Of a stretch of 64,000 nt of DNA, positions 36,465 through 44,824 are shown piece after piece; the first letter of the stretch is position 1; every line of letters begins with the position of its first letter. The stretch covers positions 1 to 64,000 of the forward strand of contig JAJPJX010000127.1 in NCBI GenBank assembly GCA_021324015.1, given 5' to 3'. A program made the position numbers and the translations under genes. A model generated the notes under the pieces. The model did no database searches. It was not told the origin of the DNA and saw only the letters and a program-made list of their open reading frames with translations. Source of the stretch: Solibacteraceae bacterium. Its GTDB lineage: Bacteria; Acidobacteriota; Terriglobia; Bryobacterales; Bryobacteraceae.

Positions 36465-37583
36465 TCAATACGCCGCCCGGTACATCTCCAACAGATCCTC
36501 CCGCGAGCAAGCCCGCGGATTGAGCTGATGGCAGCCGTCCTGGACGGCCTTGTCCGCTAATGCGGGCAGTTGCTCCTCCCGCACGCCGAAGTCCCGCAGG
36601 CGCGGCGCGATGCCCACGATGCGATTCAACTCCCGCACGCGCTCCACCGCTTCGCCCCCGCCGAACTGCTCCACCAGGTCCGCCAGCCGGTCCGCCACCG
36701 CCGGCCGGTTGAATTCCAGGACGTGGGGCAGCAGCACGGCGTTGGCCGTGCCGTGGTGCATCCCGCAGTCCGAGGAGAGCGGATGCGCCAGCGAGTGCGT
36801 CGCCCCCAGGCCTTTCTGGAACGCGATGGCGCCCATGATGGACGCCATCATCATGCTCGTCCGCGCTTCCAGATCGTCCGGCCGGGCCATCACCCGCGGC
36901 AGGTTCTCCCAGGCCAGGCGCGCCCCCCGGATCCCCACCGCGTCGCAGATCGGATGATACCCCCGCGAAAGATAGGCCTCCACGTTGTGCGTGAAGGCGT
37001 CCATCCCGGTGCCCGCGGTGATGTGCGGCGGCAGCGCCAGCGTCAGTTCCGGGTCGGCGATGGCCAGGCTGGGAATCAGGTGCGGGCTGAAGATCACTGT
37101 CTTCCGGTTGGTGGCGGCCAGCGTGATCACCGTCGAGCGCGAGACCTCGCTGCCCGTCCCCGAAGTCGTCGCGATGGCCAGGTAGGGTGGCACGTTCGCC
37201 GTAATGCGCTCCGCGCCGTCCAGCAGATCGTCGTATTCGGCCAGCGGCAGCGCGTGCGTCACCTTGAGCCGGATGGCCTTGGCCGCATCCAGCGGTGAGC
37301 CGCCGCCCAGCCCCACAATCCCGTCGCAGCCGTTCTCGCCGTAGGCCGCCACGCCTTCCAGCACGTTCTGTTCGGTGGGGTTCGGCTCCACCCGGGAATA
37401 CACCACCGCTCCGGGAGCCAGCGCCGCCACCTTCGCGAACACCGGGGTGCGTGCCAGGCCGGCATCGGTTACCAGCAGCGGCCTGCGGATGCCGCGCTTC
37501 TCGAGTTCGTCCGGCAGGCTCTCCACCGCGCCCGCGCCAAAAAGAATGCTGGTGGGAAAAGCAAACCTCGTGAGATTCCTCAT
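36465..37583 (-). CDS. Iron-containing alcohol dehydrogenase
   Basis: A 372-residue group III alcohol dehydrogenase. The NAD(P) domain has GLGGGSPLDAAKA (90-102) and TTSGTGSEVS. Iron ligands Asp195, His199, His263 and His277 occupy almost the same numbers as in E. coli FucO (GMDAFTHNVEAY, GATHSLAHPLS, GMHHG). It oxidises or reduces short alcohols and aldehydes. It is last in the operon, 3 bp after the glutamine-synthetase-like gene; in that setting it could oxidise the free hydroxyl of a gamma-glutamylated amino-alcohol. This role is inferred from context. Confidence 0.92.
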   Translation of the reverse strand: MRNLTRFAFPTSILFGAGAVESLPDELEKRGIRRPLLVTDAGLARTPVFAKVAALAPGAVVYSRVEPNPTEQNVLEGVAAYGENGCDGIVGLGGGSPLDAAKAIRLKVTHALPLAEYDDLLDGAERITANVPPYLAIATTSGTGSEVSRSTVITLAATNRKTVIFSPHLIPSLAIADPELTLALPPHITAGTGMDAFTHNVEAYLSRGYHPICDAVGIRGARLAWENLPRVMARPDDLEARTSMMMASIMGAIAFQKGLGATHSLAHPLSSDCGMHHGTANAVLLPHVLEFNRPAVADRLADLVEQFGGGEAVERVRELNRIVGIAPRLRDFGVREEQLPALADKAVQDGCHQLNPRACSREDLLEMYRAAY

Positions 37584-37586
37584 AGC

Positions 37587-38933
37587 TCAGATCGATTCCA
37601 GGTACCGCTCCAGCTCCCAGTCCGTGACGGCCTTCTGGAACTGCCGCGTCTCCCATTCCCGCGTTCCCGCATAATGCTCCACGAACTCGTCGCCCAGCCA
37701 CCGCCGCGCGAGCGCGCTCTTGCGAAACTGCCGCGTGGCCTCCTCCAAGGTGCGCGGCAGCGCCGGCGCGTTGCCGGCGTACGCGTTGACCGCGGGCTCG
37801 GGAAGCTCCAGTTCCCGCTCGATCCCGTCCAGCCCCGCCGCCAGCGATGCCGCCATGGCCAGGTAGGGGTTGATGTCCGCGCCCGTCACCCGCAGTTCCA
37901 CGCGCGTGGATTTCCGGCTGCCCGGAATGGCCCGCACCGCCGTGGTGCGGTTATCCAGTCCCCAGGTGGCGTTCACCGGAGCCCACGCACCCGGCACCGT
38001 ACGCTTGTAGGAGTTCACGGTGGGCAGAAACACCGCCGCCAGCTCCGCCATGTTGGCCACCAGCCCGGCGATGTAGTGCCGCATCAGGTTTGACATCCCC
38101 CCGCCCTCGGCGGCGAACAGGTTGTGCTCGCCCGCCGTGTCCCACAGGCTCTGGTGCAGGTGCCCGCTCGATCCGGGCAGTTCCGGGTTCCACTTGGCCA
38201 TAAACGTGGGCATCAGCCCGTGCCGCGCCGAAATTTCCTTCACAGCGGTCTTGAACAGCGCCGCCCGGTCCGCCCCCTCCACCCCCGCCTCCACGGCGAT
38301 GGCCGCCTCGTACACGCCAGGCCCGGTCTCCGTGTGCAGGCCCTCCAGCGGCACGTGAAAGGCTGCCAGGTCGTCCAGCAGGTGCAGCACCAGGGCGGCA
38401 TGCTCCGAGGCCCGCAGCACGCTGTAGCCGAACATCCCCGGGCTCAGCGGCGTCAGGTTGCGGAAGTGTTTCTCCCGCGCGCTGTGCGGCGTCTCCTCAA
38501 AGAAAAAGAACTCATACTCCGCCGAAAAGCAGGCCGTGTAGCCCGCCTCGGCGGCCTTCCCCAGCACCCGCCGGAACACCTGCCGCGGGGCGATCTCCAG
38601 CGGTCTTCCGTCTCCGGTCACGAAGTCCATCAGGAAAAAGGCCGTGCCCGGCTCCCAGGGAATCAGCCGCAGGCTGTCCAGGTCGATCCGGCAGTGCCCG
38701 TCCGGGTATCCCGTGTGCCAGCCCGTGAACCGCGCGTTGTCGTAGAGCACGTCCCCGATGTCCCAGCCGAAGATCACGTCGCAGAATCCCAGCCCCGATT
38801 CCGCCGCCGCCCAGAACTTCTCCAGGCTGATGTACTTGCCGCGCAGCGTGGCGTCCACATCGAACGCCCCCACCTTCACGCGGCGGATGTTCCCTTTATG
38901 GAACTGTTCTCGAATTTCGCCGATTGTCGTCAC
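37587..38933 (-). CDS. Glutamine-synthetase-family gamma-glutamyl ligase
   Basis: A 448-residue GSI-fold ligase. GTG 38933 is preferred because it overlaps the permease stop (GTGA). Motifs include ADEYEFFFFEE-like SAEYEFFFFEET (metal Glu residues), HTETGPGVYEAAI, the ATP-site NPELPGSSGHLHQSLW, and SRKSTRVELRVTGADINPYLAMAAS. The length and the lack of the adenylylated Tyr loop of GlnA place it with PuuA/GlnA3/GlnA4-type enzymes that gamma-glutamylate amines. Flanking genes encode an amine/amino acid permease and an alcohol dehydrogenase, suggesting an amine catabolic role, not nitrogen assimilation. Confidence 0.87.
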   Translation of the reverse strand: MTTIGEIREQFHKGNIRRVKVGAFDVDATLRGKYISLEKFWAAAESGLGFCDVIFGWDIGDVLYDNARFTGWHTGYPDGHCRIDLDSLRLIPWEPGTAFFLMDFVTGDGRPLEIAPRQVFRRVLGKAAEAGYTACFSAEYEFFFFEETPHSAREKHFRNLTPLSPGMFGYSVLRASEHAALVLHLLDDLAAFHVPLEGLHTETGPGVYEAAIAVEAGVEGADRAALFKTAVKEISARHGLMPTFMAKWNPELPGSSGHLHQSLWDTAGEHNLFAAEGGGMSNLMRHYIAGLVANMAELAAVFLPTVNSYKRTVPGAWAPVNATWGLDNRTTAVRAIPGSRKSTRVELRVTGADINPYLAMAASLAAGLDGIERELELPEPAVNAYAGNAPALPRTLEEATRQFRKSALARRWLGDEFVEHYAGTREWETRQFQKAVTDWELERYLESI

Positions 38934-40411
38934 AGAACCGAATCCCACCGCTCGCCGGCCGCGCAGGCGGAATCCTGGCGGCGGAGGCTCCATGCAGGCC
39001 CTTGAAACTTCTTACGCACCTCCACGAAATACAGCAACCCTAGCGCCGCCAGCAGCCCGGCCAGCGTTTTACCAGCCAGTTCGTTCGGCGGCATGATCAG
39101 CACCACGCAGATAAACGCCGCGTAGCCGATGGCCGCCAGGTTGACCGCCGGACCATAGCGCCCCAGGCTCCACACCGCCTGCCCCGGCCACGGTGAGCCC
39201 GCCCGCCGCGCCCGCCACCCCAGGACTACCGGAATCGTGTAAGCCAGGTACAGCGCCACCACGCTCAGCGAGGTCACAATCGGAATTGCCCCGGCCCATA
39301 TCATGGCTCCGAACGAAGCCGCCACGATCAGCCAGATCGCGCTTGCCGGCGTGCCATGCCGCGGGCTCACCCAGCGCACCGCCGGCGCCAGCGGCGTCCC
39401 GTTATCCCGCGCCAGCGAATACAGCGCCCGTGAAGCCGAAGCAATGCACGCCAGCCCGCAAAACCACATGGCCATGGAGGCCAGCGCTGCCATGGCGTTG
39501 CCCATCCTCGCCCCCAGTGCTCCGTCCAGTATGGCGATCACCGCCGGAATTGCCTCGCCTTGCGCGTCCTTGGCCGCCAGCGCCGCCGGGATGCTGCGGA
39601 TGGCCAGCGTCACCGCCAGGATCAGGAAATACCCCACCACCCCGGAGATCCCCACCGCCAGCACAATCCCCCACGGCGCCCGCCGCCGCGGATCCTGTGT
39701 CTCTTCCGCCAGGTGCGCCGAGGCGTCAAACCCCGTGTAGGTCCATTGGGCTTGCAGCAGTCCCAGCAGGAAGGCCCACCAGTAGGGTGCGCGCCCGTTG
39801 CTGTTTACTCCTGCCAGCAGAAAGGCCGCCGGCTGCTTGGGCGCGAACCACACGAGCGCCACGACCACCAGCAGCACGCCCACGATGTGCACGGTGACGC
39901 TGACATCGTTGAGAATCGCCACCAGGCGCACCCCGTAATGGTTCAGCGCCCCCTGCGTCAGCAGGATGAAGCCGAACATCCACAGCAGGTGAGCCTGGCT
40001 CGAGGAAATGTTGAGGAATGGAAGCACGAACTGCGCGCAACTGTAGTTGATGCCCGCCTGCGTCGCGATCAGTCCCAGGATGTTCAGCCAGGCCACCAGC
40101 CAGCCCCATCCCGTGCCCCCCAGATCGGCAGCCCAGTGGTACATGGCGCCGGCGGTTGGGTACGCCGAGCACAACTCCGCCATGCTGGCCGCCACCGCCA
40201 GAGTAAACACTGTGGCCAGCGGCCAACCCAGCGTCATCTCCAGCGGCCCGCCCATCTCCAGGCCATACCCGAACAGGGTCGACGCCCCGGTCAGAATGGA
40301 AATGATCGAGAAGGAAACGGCGAAGTTCGAAAACCCGCCCATGTTACGGAACAGTTCCTGGGCGTAGCCGAATCGCCCCAGGTCCGCACGGTCCTGGTCG
40401 GGTTGGGACAT
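38930..40411 (-). CDS. APC superfamily amino acid/amine permease
   Basis: A 493-residue carrier with about 12 transmembrane segments. FSVSFSIISILTG-like FAVSFSIISILTG in helix 1, PTAGAMYHWAADLGG and TGFDASAHLAEETQDPRR are signatures of the amino acid-choline (ACT) branch, which includes GABA, choline and ethanolamine permeases. The C-terminal tail is cytosolic. It overlaps the ligase gene by 4 bp and lies 19 bp after the Nramp-like gene, so all five genes from 42926 to 36465 may be one transcript. Confidence 0.9.
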   Translation of the reverse strand: MSQPDQDRADLGRFGYAQELFRNMGGFSNFAVSFSIISILTGASTLFGYGLEMGGPLEMTLGWPLATVFTLAVAASMAELCSAYPTAGAMYHWAADLGGTGWGWLVAWLNILGLIATQAGINYSCAQFVLPFLNISSSQAHLLWMFGFILLTQGALNHYGVRLVAILNDVSVTVHIVGVLLVVVALVWFAPKQPAAFLLAGVNSNGRAPYWWAFLLGLLQAQWTYTGFDASAHLAEETQDPRRRAPWGIVLAVGISGVVGYFLILAVTLAIRSIPAALAAKDAQGEAIPAVIAILDGALGARMGNAMAALASMAMWFCGLACIASASRALYSLARDNGTPLAPAVRWVSPRHGTPASAIWLIVAASFGAMIWAGAIPIVTSLSVVALYLAYTIPVVLGWRARRAGSPWPGQAVWSLGRYGPAVNLAAIGYAAFICVVLIMPPNELAGKTLAGLLAALGLLYFVEVRKKFQGPAWSLRRQDSACAAGERWDSVL

Positions 40412-40430
40412 CGGGGCTAGTATCCCTGAA

Positions 40431-41678
40431 TCAATGCGCGCCGCGCAAACTGATGCCCACCAGCGCCAGCGTCAGCCCGATCATCACCACCACCGTGATC
40501 CACGAAGCCAGGTTGTAGCCCCGCGAATTGGTCCACTCCTGCATCAGGTCGCGCTTGTTGATCAGCAGGATCATGAAGATCAGCACGAAGGGCAGCAGCA
40601 CCCCGTTGAGCACCTGCGAAAGCAGGATCATGCGCACCAGCGGAAACTGCGGAATCAGCACCACCCCGGCCCCCACCACGATCAGCAGCGTGTACAGCCA
40701 GTAGAAGATGGGCGCCTCGCGGAAGCGCTTGTTGACCCCCGCCTCAAAGCCCAGCCCTTCGCACACCGAGTAGGCGGTCGAAAGCGGCAGGATGCACGCC
40801 GCGAACAGCGAGGCGTTGAACAGCCCGGCGCTGAACAGCAGAAAGGCATACTGGCCGAACGGCTTCAGGCCCAGCGCCGCTTCCGCCGCATCCTTGATGT
40901 CCCGCGGCGAGATGCTGTAGATCGCCCCCGCGCACGCCACGATGATGAAGAATGCGATCACGGAAGTCATGAGGCACCCCACCACCACCTCGATGCGAGA
41001 CTCGGCATACTCCTTCGCCGTGATGCCCTTTTCCACCACCGCCGCCTGCAAGTAAAACTGCATCCACGGCGCGATCGTGGTGCCTACCATGCCGATCAGC
41101 ATCTCGATGTAGGCTCCATCCAGCAGCAGCACCGGCTTGACGCTGTAGATCGCCGCCTCCTTCCAGTCCGGCTTCACCAGGAAACCCGAAATCACGTACG
41201 TCACGTAGAATACGCACGCGAACAGGAAGATCTTCTCCACGTTCTGGTAGTTGCCCTTGAGCACCAGCAGCCACACCGCAAGCGCCGCCAGCGGTACCGA
41301 AATGTAGCGGCTGATGTGAAACAGTTCCAGCGAACTCGCCACCCCGGCAAACTCCGCCATCACGTTCGTCAGGTTGGCCAGCACCAGCAGCAACATCATG
41401 AGGAAGGTGATTCGCAGCCCGAATTCCTCCCGGATCAGGTCCGAGAGGCCCTTGCCGGTCACCGCCCCCATGCGCGAACACATCTCCTGGGTGATGATCA
41501 GGACTACCGTGATGGGCAGTAGCGTCCACAGCGGCAGGTAACCGAAGCGCGCCCCCGCCGCCGAATAGGTGAAGATGCCGCCGGAATCGTTATCGACGAC
41601 TGCGGTGATGAACCCGGGCCCGATAACGGCGAAGAAGACCGCAAGATGGTAACGGAAGCGGCTCAGGATCCGTCGCAT
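40431..41678 (-). CDS. Nramp-related divalent cation transporter with altered metal site
   Basis: A 415-residue LeuT-fold carrier with 11 membrane segments. The helix 1 metal motif DPGN of classical Nramp is replaced by DNDSGG (29-34), and the helix 6 motif with Met-Pro-His is Ala203-Pro204-Trp205 (GTTIAPW). Loss of the Met thioether is recorded for Nramp-related magnesium transporters, so a hard cation such as Mg2+ is plausible; Mn2+ or an inactive site cannot be excluded. Its gene begins 3 bp after the MgtE-sensor-like gene, a strong hint that the two proteins work together. Confidence 0.87.
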   Translation of the reverse strand: MRRILSRFRYHLAVFFAVIGPGFITAVVDNDSGGIFTYSAAGARFGYLPLWTLLPITVVLIITQEMCSRMGAVTGKGLSDLIREEFGLRITFLMMLLLVLANLTNVMAEFAGVASSLELFHISRYISVPLAALAVWLLVLKGNYQNVEKIFLFACVFYVTYVISGFLVKPDWKEAAIYSVKPVLLLDGAYIEMLIGMVGTTIAPWMQFYLQAAVVEKGITAKEYAESRIEVVVGCLMTSVIAFFIIVACAGAIYSISPRDIKDAAEAALGLKPFGQYAFLLFSAGLFNASLFAACILPLSTAYSVCEGLGFEAGVNKRFREAPIFYWLYTLLIVVGAGVVLIPQFPLVRMILLSQVLNGVLLPFVLIFMILLINKRDLMQEWTNSRGYNLASWITVVVMIGLTLALVGISLRGAH

Positions 41679-41681
41679 CCG

Positions 41682-42926
41682 TCACTTTTGCCTCAGTACG
41701 GAAATAATATCGTCGGCGGTGATGACGCCGCTCAGTTTGCCTTCTTCGTCCACCACTGGCAGCGTCAGCAGATTGTATTTGTCGAACAGTTCGGTGACCC
41801 GGTCTTGCTTTTCATCCACGGTCACCTGAATCAGCGGCTCCTGCGCCAAGTCGCGCAGCCGCTGGCTTCCGGAGGCGATGAACAGGCGTGCCACCGGCAC
41901 CGCGCCGGCCAGGCGCCCTTCGCCATCCACCAGAAACAGCGTGGTCAGGTTCTCCAGCAGGTCTTCGTTGCCCTTGAGCGCCGCCAGGCTGTCGGTGACG
42001 GTGGCGTTGTCGTGCAGGACCACGTATTCGGTGTTCATCATCCCCCCGGCCGTATCTTCGTCGTACTCCAGCAGTTCCTGCACCTCGGTCTTCTCGGCGG
42101 AGTCCATCTCCTCCAGGATTTCCTCGGAAGTCTCTTCCTCCAACTCCGAGAGCACGTCCGCCGCCTCGTCCGGCGACATCTCCTCCACGATGTCCGCGGC
42201 CTTCTCCGGCTCCAGCGATTCCAGGATGCTGGCCTGCATCTTCGGATCCACCTCGGAAAGGGCCTCGGCCGCCACCTCGCTGTCGATGGTCTCGAAAATG
42301 GCCTCCCGCTCCGCCGGGCCTAGTTCCTCCACAATGTCCGCCAGGTCCGCCGGGTGGATCTGTTCCAGCGCCTGGTTGCTGATATTCAGCCGGAGCCGCC
42401 GTTGCGGGTCCGGCTCCACCATGTTGCAGAACTCCCAGCGGATCGAATTGGGCGGTATGGGCTGCTGCAACCGCCGGATCCACAGCGGCGGCAGCACCCC
42501 TTGCAGCAGCCGGCGGAAGATGCTGCGGATGCCGATATCCACTTCCAGCAGGTGCAGGGTGCCGTGTTCCGGCCCGTTACGCAGTTCCAGGGTCAGGTCG
42601 TTGACCCGCACCACCTTCCGCCCGTTCACGTCGATGATCTGCTGGTCCAGCAGGTCGCGGCTCAGCCGCAGCATGTATTCGTCTTCGTGGTAGGGAACCA
42701 GTTGCTCGTCGCTCAGCCGGATGCCCCCGGCCAGCGAAATCGAGGCCACCTGGTCGTGGCGGATGCTCAGCCAGGCATACCCCGCCCCCATCAGGAAGCG
42801 GTCAATGCGGGAGGGATGGATCACCGGAACCACCGCGGCGTCCTTCACACGGCCGATCCGCCGGCCCTTCAGGTCGTGGACCGGCATGGCCAGCAACTCG
42901 GTGAAAAACAACAGGGTTTCCGGCAT
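41682..42926 (-). CDS. PRC-barrel, MgtE_N and CBS domain protein without channel
   Basis: A 414-residue soluble protein. Two PRC-barrel-like units come first (about 8-85 with MPVHDLKGRRIGRVKD, and 90-150 with DVNGRKVVRVNDL), then the MgtE N-terminal superhelix (about 190-290, repeated LEQIHPADLADIVEEL-type turns rich in Asp and Glu), then a CBS pair (about 295-414). The MgtE membrane domain is missing. In MgtE the N/CBS module senses cytosolic Mg2+ and gates the channel, so this protein may be the Mg2+ sensor of the adjacent Nramp-like carrier. A start at codon 14 is possible. Confidence 0.85.
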   Translation of the reverse strand: MPETLLFFTELLAMPVHDLKGRRIGRVKDAAVVPVIHPSRIDRFLMGAGYAWLSIRHDQVASISLAGGIRLSDEQLVPYHEDEYMLRLSRDLLDQQIIDVNGRKVVRVNDLTLELRNGPEHGTLHLLEVDIGIRSIFRRLLQGVLPPLWIRRLQQPIPPNSIRWEFCNMVEPDPQRRLRLNISNQALEQIHPADLADIVEELGPAEREAIFETIDSEVAAEALSEVDPKMQASILESLEPEKAADIVEEMSPDEAADVLSELEEETSEEILEEMDSAEKTEVQELLEYDEDTAGGMMNTEYVVLHDNATVTDSLAALKGNEDLLENLTTLFLVDGEGRLAGAVPVARLFIASGSQRLRDLAQEPLIQVTVDEKQDRVTELFDKYNLLTLPVVDEEGKLSGVITADDIISVLRQK

Positions 42927-43096
42927 CGCAATAGCACCGGCCGCAACTGGAAAACCCGAGCGCGCGGCGGGTGCGTTGCGAAGTTCAACCGAATGGAGTG
43001 CGCTCTACATGGCTTTCCGGCGGCCCAATTCCAATATGCCTTAAGCGGGAACAAACCCGCAAGGAAAAATTGCCGCGCACCGTCGCCGGGCGGCCC

Positions 43097-44824
43097 TTAC
43101 TCGATCGTAATCACGAACGGCATCACCCGCAGCATCCCGCCCCGCAGCGCCAGGCGCGCCTGCCAGGTTTTCAGCAGCCGCCCCACCCTGGATTCCAGGG
43201 CGTCGTCCATCGCTCCCGGCATCAGCCAGTCGAGGATGCTTCGCCGCGCCGGGTAGACCACCAGGCTCACCTTTTCGCCCGCCGGAATCTTGGCTTTCTG
43301 CTTCACCAGTTCGATCGCCCGGTCGATGCCGCCTGTCTCGTCCACCAGGCCGCGCGCCTGCGCCTGCGACCCCAGCCACACCCGGCCTTCGGCCACCGGC
43401 GCGATTTGCTCGTATTTGCGATGCCGCGCCTCGGCCACTTTGCCCACGAAGTCCTTGTAGCTGGCTTCGATGCCCTGGTCCAGTTTCGCCAGTTCCGTCT
43501 GGTCCAGCGGCCGGTAGTCCGAGTCGATATCCGCAAACCGGCCCCGCTTCAGCGTGTCTTTCGTGATCCCCAGCTTGTCGTACAGCCCGTGCAGGTCCGG
43601 CTTGCCGAACACCACCCCGATCGAGCCTGTCAGCGTCCCCGGGTACGAGACGATCGGATCTCCCGTCATGGCGATGTAATAGCCGCCCGAGGCGGCCGTG
43701 TCCGACATCGAGATGACTAGCGGCTTCTTCCGCCCCAGCAGGTTCATCTCCCGCCAGATGGCGTCGGAAGCCACCACCTCGCCTCCCGGTGAATCGATTC
43801 GCACCACCACGCCGTCGATGGAGGAGTCCCCCCGCACCTTGCGCAACAGCTTGGTGAAGCCTTCCGCGGTGATGTCCGTCTCGGACTGCCCGTCGTCGCC
43901 CGGGTCTCCCTGCGTGATCGAGCCTTCCCCCACCAGGAAGGCGATCCGGCGTTTGCCGGTGAGCCCCAGCGAGGAAGGCGGCACGCGCAAATATTGGCCC
44001 GTGGTGACTTTTTTCAATTCCCCGGAGCGCAGCGCCGCCTCCAGTTCGCCGAACATCTGGTCCTCGAACCGCAGTTGGTCCACCAGGCCGCTGGCCTGCG
44101 CTTGCGACGCCAGGAACGGCCCCTGGTCGATAATCGCCCGTACCTCCGCCGGACTCTTCCGCCGCCCCTCCGCGATGGTCTCCACCAGCCTCCCGTACAA
44201 ATCGTCCAGGACGCTGTTCAGCACCTCCTTGGTCTCCGGGCTCATGTCGCTGCGCGTGAACATGTCGCCGAAGTCTTTGTATTTGCCAGCGTGCGCGATC
44301 TGCACATTCACGCCCAGCTTGTCCAGGGTCTTCTTGAAGTACATTACCTGCGCCCGCAGGCCCTTCAGGTAAAGCTGGTCCTCGGGCGCCATGTAGATCT
44401 TCGTGGCCGCCGTCGCCAGGTAGTATTCCCGCGTTCCTCCGGTCTTCAGGAAGGCATACAGCGGCTTGCCCGACTTGCGGAAACGCTCCAGGTCTGCATG
44501 AATCTCCTCGAGCTTCGCCCACCCGATCTCCAGGGATTGCGGCTCCAGCACCACCGCCTTGATGCGCGTGTCCGCCGCCGCCTTGCGCAGAAGCATCCAC
44601 ACGTTCTCCACCGTGGGCCGCGAGCGCTGCCCGAAGATCCCCAGCGGTACTTCGATCGGCGGCCGCTCCGGAATCTCCCCGTTCAGTTGCAGCACCAGCA
44701 CCGAGTTGCCCGTGATCGACGGCGCCTTCGCCCGGAACGGAATCGTCAGCGCGAACAGCAGAATGACCAGCGTGAGCCCCGTCAGGATCACTCCCGTGGC
44801 CACACCGATCAGGAATTTGCGCAT
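43097..44824 (-). CDS. sppA: Signal peptide peptidase SppA, long form
   Basis: A 575-residue membrane-anchored serine protease. A transmembrane anchor spans about 5-28; two tandem S49 domains follow, as in the E. coli 67-kDa form. The catalytic Lys183 (GKYKDF) comes from the first half and Ser379 (DTAASGGYY) from the second, matching Lys209/Ser409 of E. coli. RIDSPGGEVVASD and GSIGVVFGKPDL are family signatures. It degrades signal peptides left in the membrane. It starts 7 bp after the epimerase gene. Confidence 0.94.
   Translation of the reverse strand: MRKFLIGVATGVILTGLTLVILLFALTIPFRAKAPSITGNSVLVLQLNGEIPERPPIEVPLGIFGQRSRPTVENVWMLLRKAAADTRIKAVVLEPQSLEIGWAKLEEIHADLERFRKSGKPLYAFLKTGGTREYYLATAATKIYMAPEDQLYLKGLRAQVMYFKKTLDKLGVNVQIAHAGKYKDFGDMFTRSDMSPETKEVLNSVLDDLYGRLVETIAEGRRKSPAEVRAIIDQGPFLASQAQASGLVDQLRFEDQMFGELEAALRSGELKKVTTGQYLRVPPSSLGLTGKRRIAFLVGEGSITQGDPGDDGQSETDITAEGFTKLLRKVRGDSSIDGVVVRIDSPGGEVVASDAIWREMNLLGRKKPLVISMSDTAASGGYYIAMTGDPIVSYPGTLTGSIGVVFGKPDLHGLYDKLGITKDTLKRGRFADIDSDYRPLDQTELAKLDQGIEASYKDFVGKVAEARHRKYEQIAPVAEGRVWLGSQAQARGLVDETGGIDRAIELVKQKAKIPAGEKVSLVVYPARRSILDWLMPGAMDDALESRVGRLLKTWQARLALRGGMLRVMPFVITIE

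Follow-up and report, generated by a model that had tools for sequence, protein, structure and literature searches.

A window of 64,000 nucleotides from a Solibacteraceae bacterium (GenBank assembly GCA_021324015.1, contig JAJPJX010000127.1, positions 1 to 64,000) was analysed for a two-gene cation system on its minus strand (40431–42926). We read this pair, with a probability of about 0.6, as a Mg2+ importer with a detached feedback sensor derived from the channel MgtE. The reading builds on results computed here, namely the identity of both proteins, their strict co-occurrence in the sampled phylum, the scarcity of MgtE in the genomes that harbour them and the Mg2+ ligands retained in the sensor. 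Both the pairing and the idea of feedback were already published by Shin et al. in 2014 (PMC4072509; for all papers identified by PMC number, the accessible part of the text is cited). They defined the NrmT carriers, most of which adjoin a homologue of the N-terminal cytoplasmic domain of MgtE, and proposed that this MgtE-N-like partner regulates by feedback or acts as a chaperone. The same two gene types stand side by side in Clostridium acetobutylicum (Ca_c0685, Ca_c3329) and in Acidobacterium capsulatum (Acp2976-Acp2977). The window holds a well-supported member of this known, under-studied system, the Mg2+ reading of which is contested for the Acidobacteriota. No later work on the partner protein was found in the literature searched, which left subscription papers outside its scope, and the accessible parts of PMC8806188, PMC9606685 and PMC13209247 are silent on it.

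Identity of the sensor and the carrier

Both open reading frames were found at the positions given in a preliminary description of this DNA. The upstream gene (41682–42926) encodes a protein of 414 residues, in which Pfam matched MgtE_N (residues 190–291, E 1.3e-29), CBS (1.6e-13) and PRC (residues 5–29, 1.1e-6). The MgtE membrane domain (PF01769) was absent from this frame in the Pfam scan. Its stop codon (41684–41682) is followed, after exactly three bases (41679–41681), by the ATG at 41678 of the second gene (40431–41678), which encodes a carrier of 415 residues matching Nramp (PF01566, E 1.7e-90). At these E-values the domain matches of both proteins are beyond chance. Pfam and the codon positions agree with what had been described, a PRC, MgtE_N and CBS protein without the MgtE membrane domain and a carrier starting three bases after it.

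The model of the sensor (mean predicted local distance difference test score, pLDDT, 85.5; predicted template modelling score, pTM, 0.60) consists of two small beta domains (residues ~1–75 and ~88–170), several short helices in succession and a CBS pair. The beta domains stand before MgtE_N and correspond to a first PRC-like barrel (residues 1–80, 42687–42926), the only one scored by Pfam, and to a putative second barrel (residues 86–166, 42429–42671), which is suggested by the strands of the model. MgtE_N (42054–42359) and the CBS pair (residues 292–413, 41688–42053) follow. The best fold match was the Mg2+-bound cytosolic domain of MgtE (2yvy; Foldseek E 1.3e-20, Z 22.6, root-mean-square deviation (rmsd) 2.5, 240 aligned residues), which fits the soluble MgtE-like module proposed earlier. 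With the MgtE channel of Thermus thermophilus (TtMgtE; 2yvy, 2yvx) the sensor shares the N and CBS module, several Mg2+ ligands and the fold, whereas it lacks the membrane domain and the ATP-contact residues, has a shortened plug helix and carries added PRC barrels. Mean conservation is highest in MgtE_N (2.53 bits), followed by the second barrel (2.19) and the first (1.63).

Using the site assignments of TtMgtE (PMC5882242 and PMC5529423), we found that E59, D91, D95 and D247, which belong to the sites Mg7, Mg4 and Mg6, are kept in the sensor as E221, D253 and D257 in MgtE_N and as D406 at the end of the CBS pair. D247 is situated at the retained start of the plug helix (246–263); the sensor ends two residues past the position of TtMgtE 253, and the helix is incomplete. 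The Mg4 pair D91/D247 was followed through 155 sensors, which are related and hence do not represent independent events: both ligands are kept in 100 and lost in 35, D91 alone is lost in 20 (one of them an alignment gap) and D247 alone in none.

Among solved structures, the carrier matched best EleNRMT of Eggerthella lenta (PDB 7qia, E 4.6e-108), a characterised Mg2+ transporter of the Nramp-related (NRMT) type (Ramanadane et al. 2022, PMC8806188), whereas the best MntH entry reached 3.7e-22. The carrier part of a read-through model of both proteins superposed onto EleNRMT with a Z of 57 and an rmsd of 1.6 over 390 aligned residues. Compared with Mn2+ carriers, the metal site of EleNRMT has Gly for Asn, Ala for Met and Thr for Ala, and the first His of transmembrane helix (TM) 6 is Trp (PMC8806188). 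The same pattern was found in the carrier of the window, with the Asp of TM1 kept, and D31, G34, T200, A203, W205 and E109 are all identical to EleNRMT; the comparison of the proton pathway was limited to W205 and E109. The two motifs lie at 41577–41594 (TM1, D29-N30-D31-S32-G33-G34) and at 41064–41081 (TM6, T200-T201-I202-A203-P204-W205). The Slc11/MntH signatures DPGN in TM1 and MPH in TM6 are replaced by DSGG and APW. The change of Met-Pro-His to Ala-Pro-Trp is real, at A203-P204-W205; the change of DPGN is real too, but the equivalent residues are D31-S32-G33-G34, that is, DSGG inside the DNDSGG of the preliminary description. The carrier scores under the MntH cut-offs of NCBIfam NF001923 and TIGR01197 and over that of the general Nramp_1 model NF037982 (67.1 versus 50 bits). 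Judged by sequence, it is of the NRMT (Mg2+) type and closest to EleNRMT, and Mg2+ transport is predicted for it. The EleNRMT paper treats the carrier alone, and the words 'operon' and 'CBS' are absent from the accessible main text of PMC8806188.

The genome has another Nramp gene (L001, contig C113, 817–2745, minus strand), which encodes an MntH-type (Slc11) protein of 642 residues. It shares the PF01566 fold family with the carrier, but keeps DPGN and Met-Pro, and it bears a C-terminal universal stress protein domain (Usp, E 2.3e-25). Many MntH matches in the phylum have open frames of more than 600 residues, a frame length that suggests further Usp fusions.

Co-occurrence of the pair and scarcity of MgtE

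We searched 297 Acidobacteriota genomes, a sample in which families are unequally represented and for which the best few candidates per genome were scored. At a threshold of E <= 1e-60, the carrier was present in 84 genomes. A PRC-MgtE_N-CBS gene could be extracted from 83 of these 84, and a converse search of the sample with a sensor profile detected it in 83 genomes, all with a carrier, and in none of the 213 others; the 83 genomes scored 418–529 bits, while the next rows were full MgtE proteins at 230 bits or less. Co-conservation, whose absence had been set beforehand as the outcome refuting the proposed system, is strict in this sample. The one carrier genome without a sensor (G095) has a carrier solely of the DDDPSG type.

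In 42 of the 83 genomes with both genes, these lie within 350 bp of each other on one strand, with the sensor leading in 28 and the carrier in 14, and in 20 more they are within 8 kb. When the best 80 of 560 matches in named genomes were inspected, the sensor stood upstream on the same strand in 66; five of the 14 named loci without an upstream sensor have less than 1.4 kb of upstream sequence. With starts chosen by script, the reading frames overlap in 11 of the 66 linked named loci. Tree distances of sensors and carriers, uncorrected for species descent, correlated with an r of 0.90 across 89 pairs, 83 from genomes and 6 from plasmids, compared to 0.15 for the best of 500 permutations. Both trees contain a clade of 14 more distant genomes of the phylum, of which 13 have the carrier first, and in both the pair of a Citrobacter plasmid joins this clade.

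A carrier match was obtained in 84 plasmid records, seven of which were examined. Pairs are present on the plasmids of Alicyclobacillus, Citrobacter, Leifsonia, Streptomyces clavuligerus, Rhodococcus and Arthrobacter, and the carrier of a Paraburkholderia plasmid has no adjoining sensor. PRC was over the cut-off in three of five plasmid sensors scanned. An M-box riboswitch precedes the pair in three of the six plasmid pairs, those of Alicyclobacillus (145 bits), Leifsonia (124 bits) and Arthrobacter (119 bits), and was not found before the pairs of Citrobacter, Streptomyces clavuligerus and Rhodococcus. An MgtC-like gene lies next to the pair on the Leifsonia plasmid, and a CorA gene is nearby on that of Arthrobacter. 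On plasmid pPSV of Citrobacter freundii (L214), the pair adjoins a metal P-type ATPase and an ArsR-type regulator. The pair is also found on large enterobacterial plasmids, including Serratia marcescens CP068396 (H2/H45), and the NRMT-type frames in the plasmid loci L215–L219 (Actinomycetota, Paraburkholderia) have 512–579 residues compared to the usual 415.

The idea that every PF01566 gene without DPGN is a Mg2+ carrier with a sensor was rejected, as four such additional gene copies (L049, L050, L053 and L125, with DDDPSG or DNDAGA) have no adjoining sensor. The DNDAGA site occurs together with a sensor in Leifsonia and Arthrobacter, so that the motif alone is no predictor of the partner. 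In two genomes of different families, an MntH-type gene adjoins the pair (L065 in G185, L131 in G119), and Mg2+- and Mn2+-type carriers can therefore share a locus. A gene of ~1.1 kb, glycosyltransferase-like by eye, lies between sensor and carrier in two loci of the Acidobacteriaceae type (L192, L203).

The MgtE membrane domain was found in 175 of the 297 genomes, in 14 of the 83 with the pair versus 161 of the 214 others (Fisher test ignoring descent, 2.8e-20). Six of the 14 matches are weak (E 1e-16 to 1e-23); with eight weak matches set aside, the counts are 8/83 and 159/214. Within families, a Cochran-Mantel-Haenszel test on the 275 genomes with a known family gave a z of -2.9 and an odds ratio of 0.18 from 7 informative families. 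MntH over the cut-off, on the other hand, is commoner with the pair (44/83 versus 23/214), the opposite of what is expected of a Mn2+ substitute. Neither MgtE nor CorA was found in 44 genomes when weak matches (two to MgtE, six to CorA) are taken as absent, and 28 of these hold the pair. The genome of the window (98.83% complete) yielded neither an MgtE membrane domain nor CorA, and no MgtA-type ATPase exceeded the cut-off; the MgtA search covered this genome only and gave ten weak P-type ATPase matches, one of them near a contig start and the best with 54.4 bits (cut-off 610.75). Of the transporter families tested, the pair is thus the sole recognised candidate for Mg2+ import in this genome. 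That MgtE is scarce where the pair occurs supports Mg2+ as the substrate. Neither the PRC barrels nor this scarcity is mentioned in the accessible part of PMC4072509, which was not searched for these words.

Proposed mechanism and competing explanations

We infer Mg2+ as the substrate in this organism, a contact between sensor and carrier, and feedback. The carrier would admit partly hydrated Mg2+ through an Nramp fold without the site Met and Asn of MntH. Its partner would be the cytosolic Mg2+-sensing module of MgtE, cut from the pore and extended by two PRC-like barrels. At high cytosolic Mg2+ the sensor would take a compact, Mg2+-bound form, and this form would slow or shut the carrier, as a negative feedback in trans. 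Since the sensor has no pore and only a truncated plug helix, the way in which MgtE closes would be unavailable and docking would be needed; the sensor would act by docking on the carrier, perhaps via its PRC barrels. Mg2+ is more likely than Mn2+ as the carrier substrate, and gating of the carrier by the sensor is a plausible proposal. That the modelled second barrel is the docking part is a guess, and remains so because MgtE_N is more conserved than this barrel. In the read-through model, the linker (residues 171–190) has a pLDDT of 82–83, compared to 50–68 in the sensor alone, which is a hint only as the alignments differ.

Several results weigh against this reading. In the sensor, D226 and D250 (Mg5) are replaced by N385 and S409, the protein stops before the plug-helix residues E258/D259 (Mg2, Mg3), and five ATP-contact residues (Y170, R187, D188, N203 and F227) are replaced, V207 being Ile. 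The genes are unlinked in 21 of the 83 genomes, on different contigs in 19, where some splits may be assembly breaks, and more than 100 kb apart in 2. A natural fusion of sensor and carrier was absent from the 131 loci read; very long open frames among these were considered as fusions and rejected, being taken as run-through in high-GC DNA with two proteins in different frames. The read-through model (pTM 0.73) is disordered at the junction (415–439) and establishes no interface. No M-box was found upstream of the pair in the window (42800–43400, even at E up to 10) or at 27 acidobacterial loci scanned, and the A. capsulatum member likewise has none (PMC4072509). As the M-box is present only in some members, it is not a defining requirement of the NRMT operon.

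The distribution of other transporters also holds points against the Mg2+ importer. Two of the 7 informative families, f4 and f46, do not show the expected direction in the association of the pair with MgtE. MntH at ~200 bits or more occurs in 27 of 175 MgtE genomes versus 52 of 122 without MgtE; MgtE is therefore also scarce in MntH genomes, and lineage accounts for part of its exclusion. CorA is not excluded by the pair (52/83 versus 119/214, p 0.30). Moreover, 16 genomes have neither MgtE nor CorA nor the pair, which indicates that other Mg2+ routes exist.

In the published test, Acp2977 of A. capsulatum gave full Mn2+ rescue and Mg2+ rescue solely at low millimolar Mg2+, and co-expression of the partner Acp2976 added no Mg2+ rescue (PMC4072509). 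The Mg2+ uptake claimed in the preliminary description therefore stands in part: the NRMT-type site and the scarcity of MgtE in pair genomes speak for it, while this test favoured Mn2+. An alternative, suggested by Shin et al. for A. capsulatum and regarded by us as unlikely, is that the carrier mainly imports Mn2+ and that its partner is a Mn2+ sensor or a metal chaperone. EleNRMT itself moves Mn2+ (Km 119 uM, PMC8806188), although it is at the same time an example of a Mn2+-moving carrier still able to carry Mg2+. Of the 30 sensors of family group f2, which we infer to be the Acidobacteriaceae, 24 lack at least one of the D91/D247 ligands, a point in favour of this alternative; yet 28 of the 30 f2 genomes also have an MntH over the cut-off, and 16 have neither MgtE nor CorA. 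In locus L224, which we take to be from the A. capsulatum genome, S and H stand at the Mg4 positions of the sensor and the carrier site is DNDPNG, whereas the window, with D, D and DNDSGG, keeps the Mg4 ligands and the usual carrier site. DNDPNG is rare (1 of 176 aligned rows, plus L224 and L225). If L224 is indeed from A. capsulatum, the pair used in the 2014 acidobacterial test has lost both Mg4 ligands and has an unusual carrier site, and the test may not speak for the lineage of the window.

Somewhat less probable still is a partner that senses or stores Mg2+ freely in the cytosol on behalf of other targets and is inherited together with the carrier through shared Mg2+ homeostasis. The unlinked genes and the absence of a fusion would suit such a protein, as would the Clostridium carriers, which functioned without the partner gene (PMC4072509). 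However, strict co-occurrence and matching trees, plasmid pairs of other phyla included, argue for a closer tie, as do the overlapping frames. From an inhibitor acting by feedback one would expect no gain in growth when Mg2+ is low, so that rescue under this condition would be no test of a shut-off device and the null result of Shin et al. is compatible with feedback. Very improbable, finally, is a decaying MgtE remnant without present function, whose pore was replaced by the carrier. The shortened plug helix and the missing D226/D250 and ATP-contact residues would fit decay, but 83 of the 84 carrier genomes retain this protein, alignment columns of its second barrel, MgtE_N and CBS are conserved, and its two Mg4 ligands are kept or lost in coordination.

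Neighbouring genes and meaning for the Acidobacteriota

A tight run of genes on the same strand (36465–40411) starts 19 bases downstream of the carrier and comprises an amino acid permease, a glutamine synthetase-like gene and an iron alcohol dehydrogenase; it could be an operon for amine use. A wider conserved operon around the pair was considered and rejected. Among 47 relatives (L132–L178 of 80 loci, some with short flanks), SppA, which likewise neighbours the pair in the window, was near the pair in one, the permease in one, and the glutamine synthetase-like gene and the iron alcohol dehydrogenase in none. A scan of 40300–43300 for promoters and terminators found none.

We prefer to read the pair as a Mg2+ importer whose feedback sensor, derived from MgtE, is detached, and a broader form of this reading is put forward tentatively. 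The Mg2+-sensing module of a channel would now work as an independent subunit, controlling in trans a carrier with an unrelated fold and docking via PRC barrels rather than a plug helix. This device would have replaced MgtE as the main Mg2+ importer in much of the Acidobacteriota, and in the Acidobacteriaceae the sites of carrier and sensor would have drifted together to another set point or metal. If true, an ion-sensing module would be movable between unrelated transporter folds as a separate subunit. The NRMT class, whose literature in its accessible part shows control of expression and no demonstrated control of activity, would gain a testable off-switch. Members with intact Mg2+ ligands would be better test cases than A. 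capsulatum, and the pair would explain Mg2+ uptake in some Acidobacteriota that have neither MgtE nor CorA.

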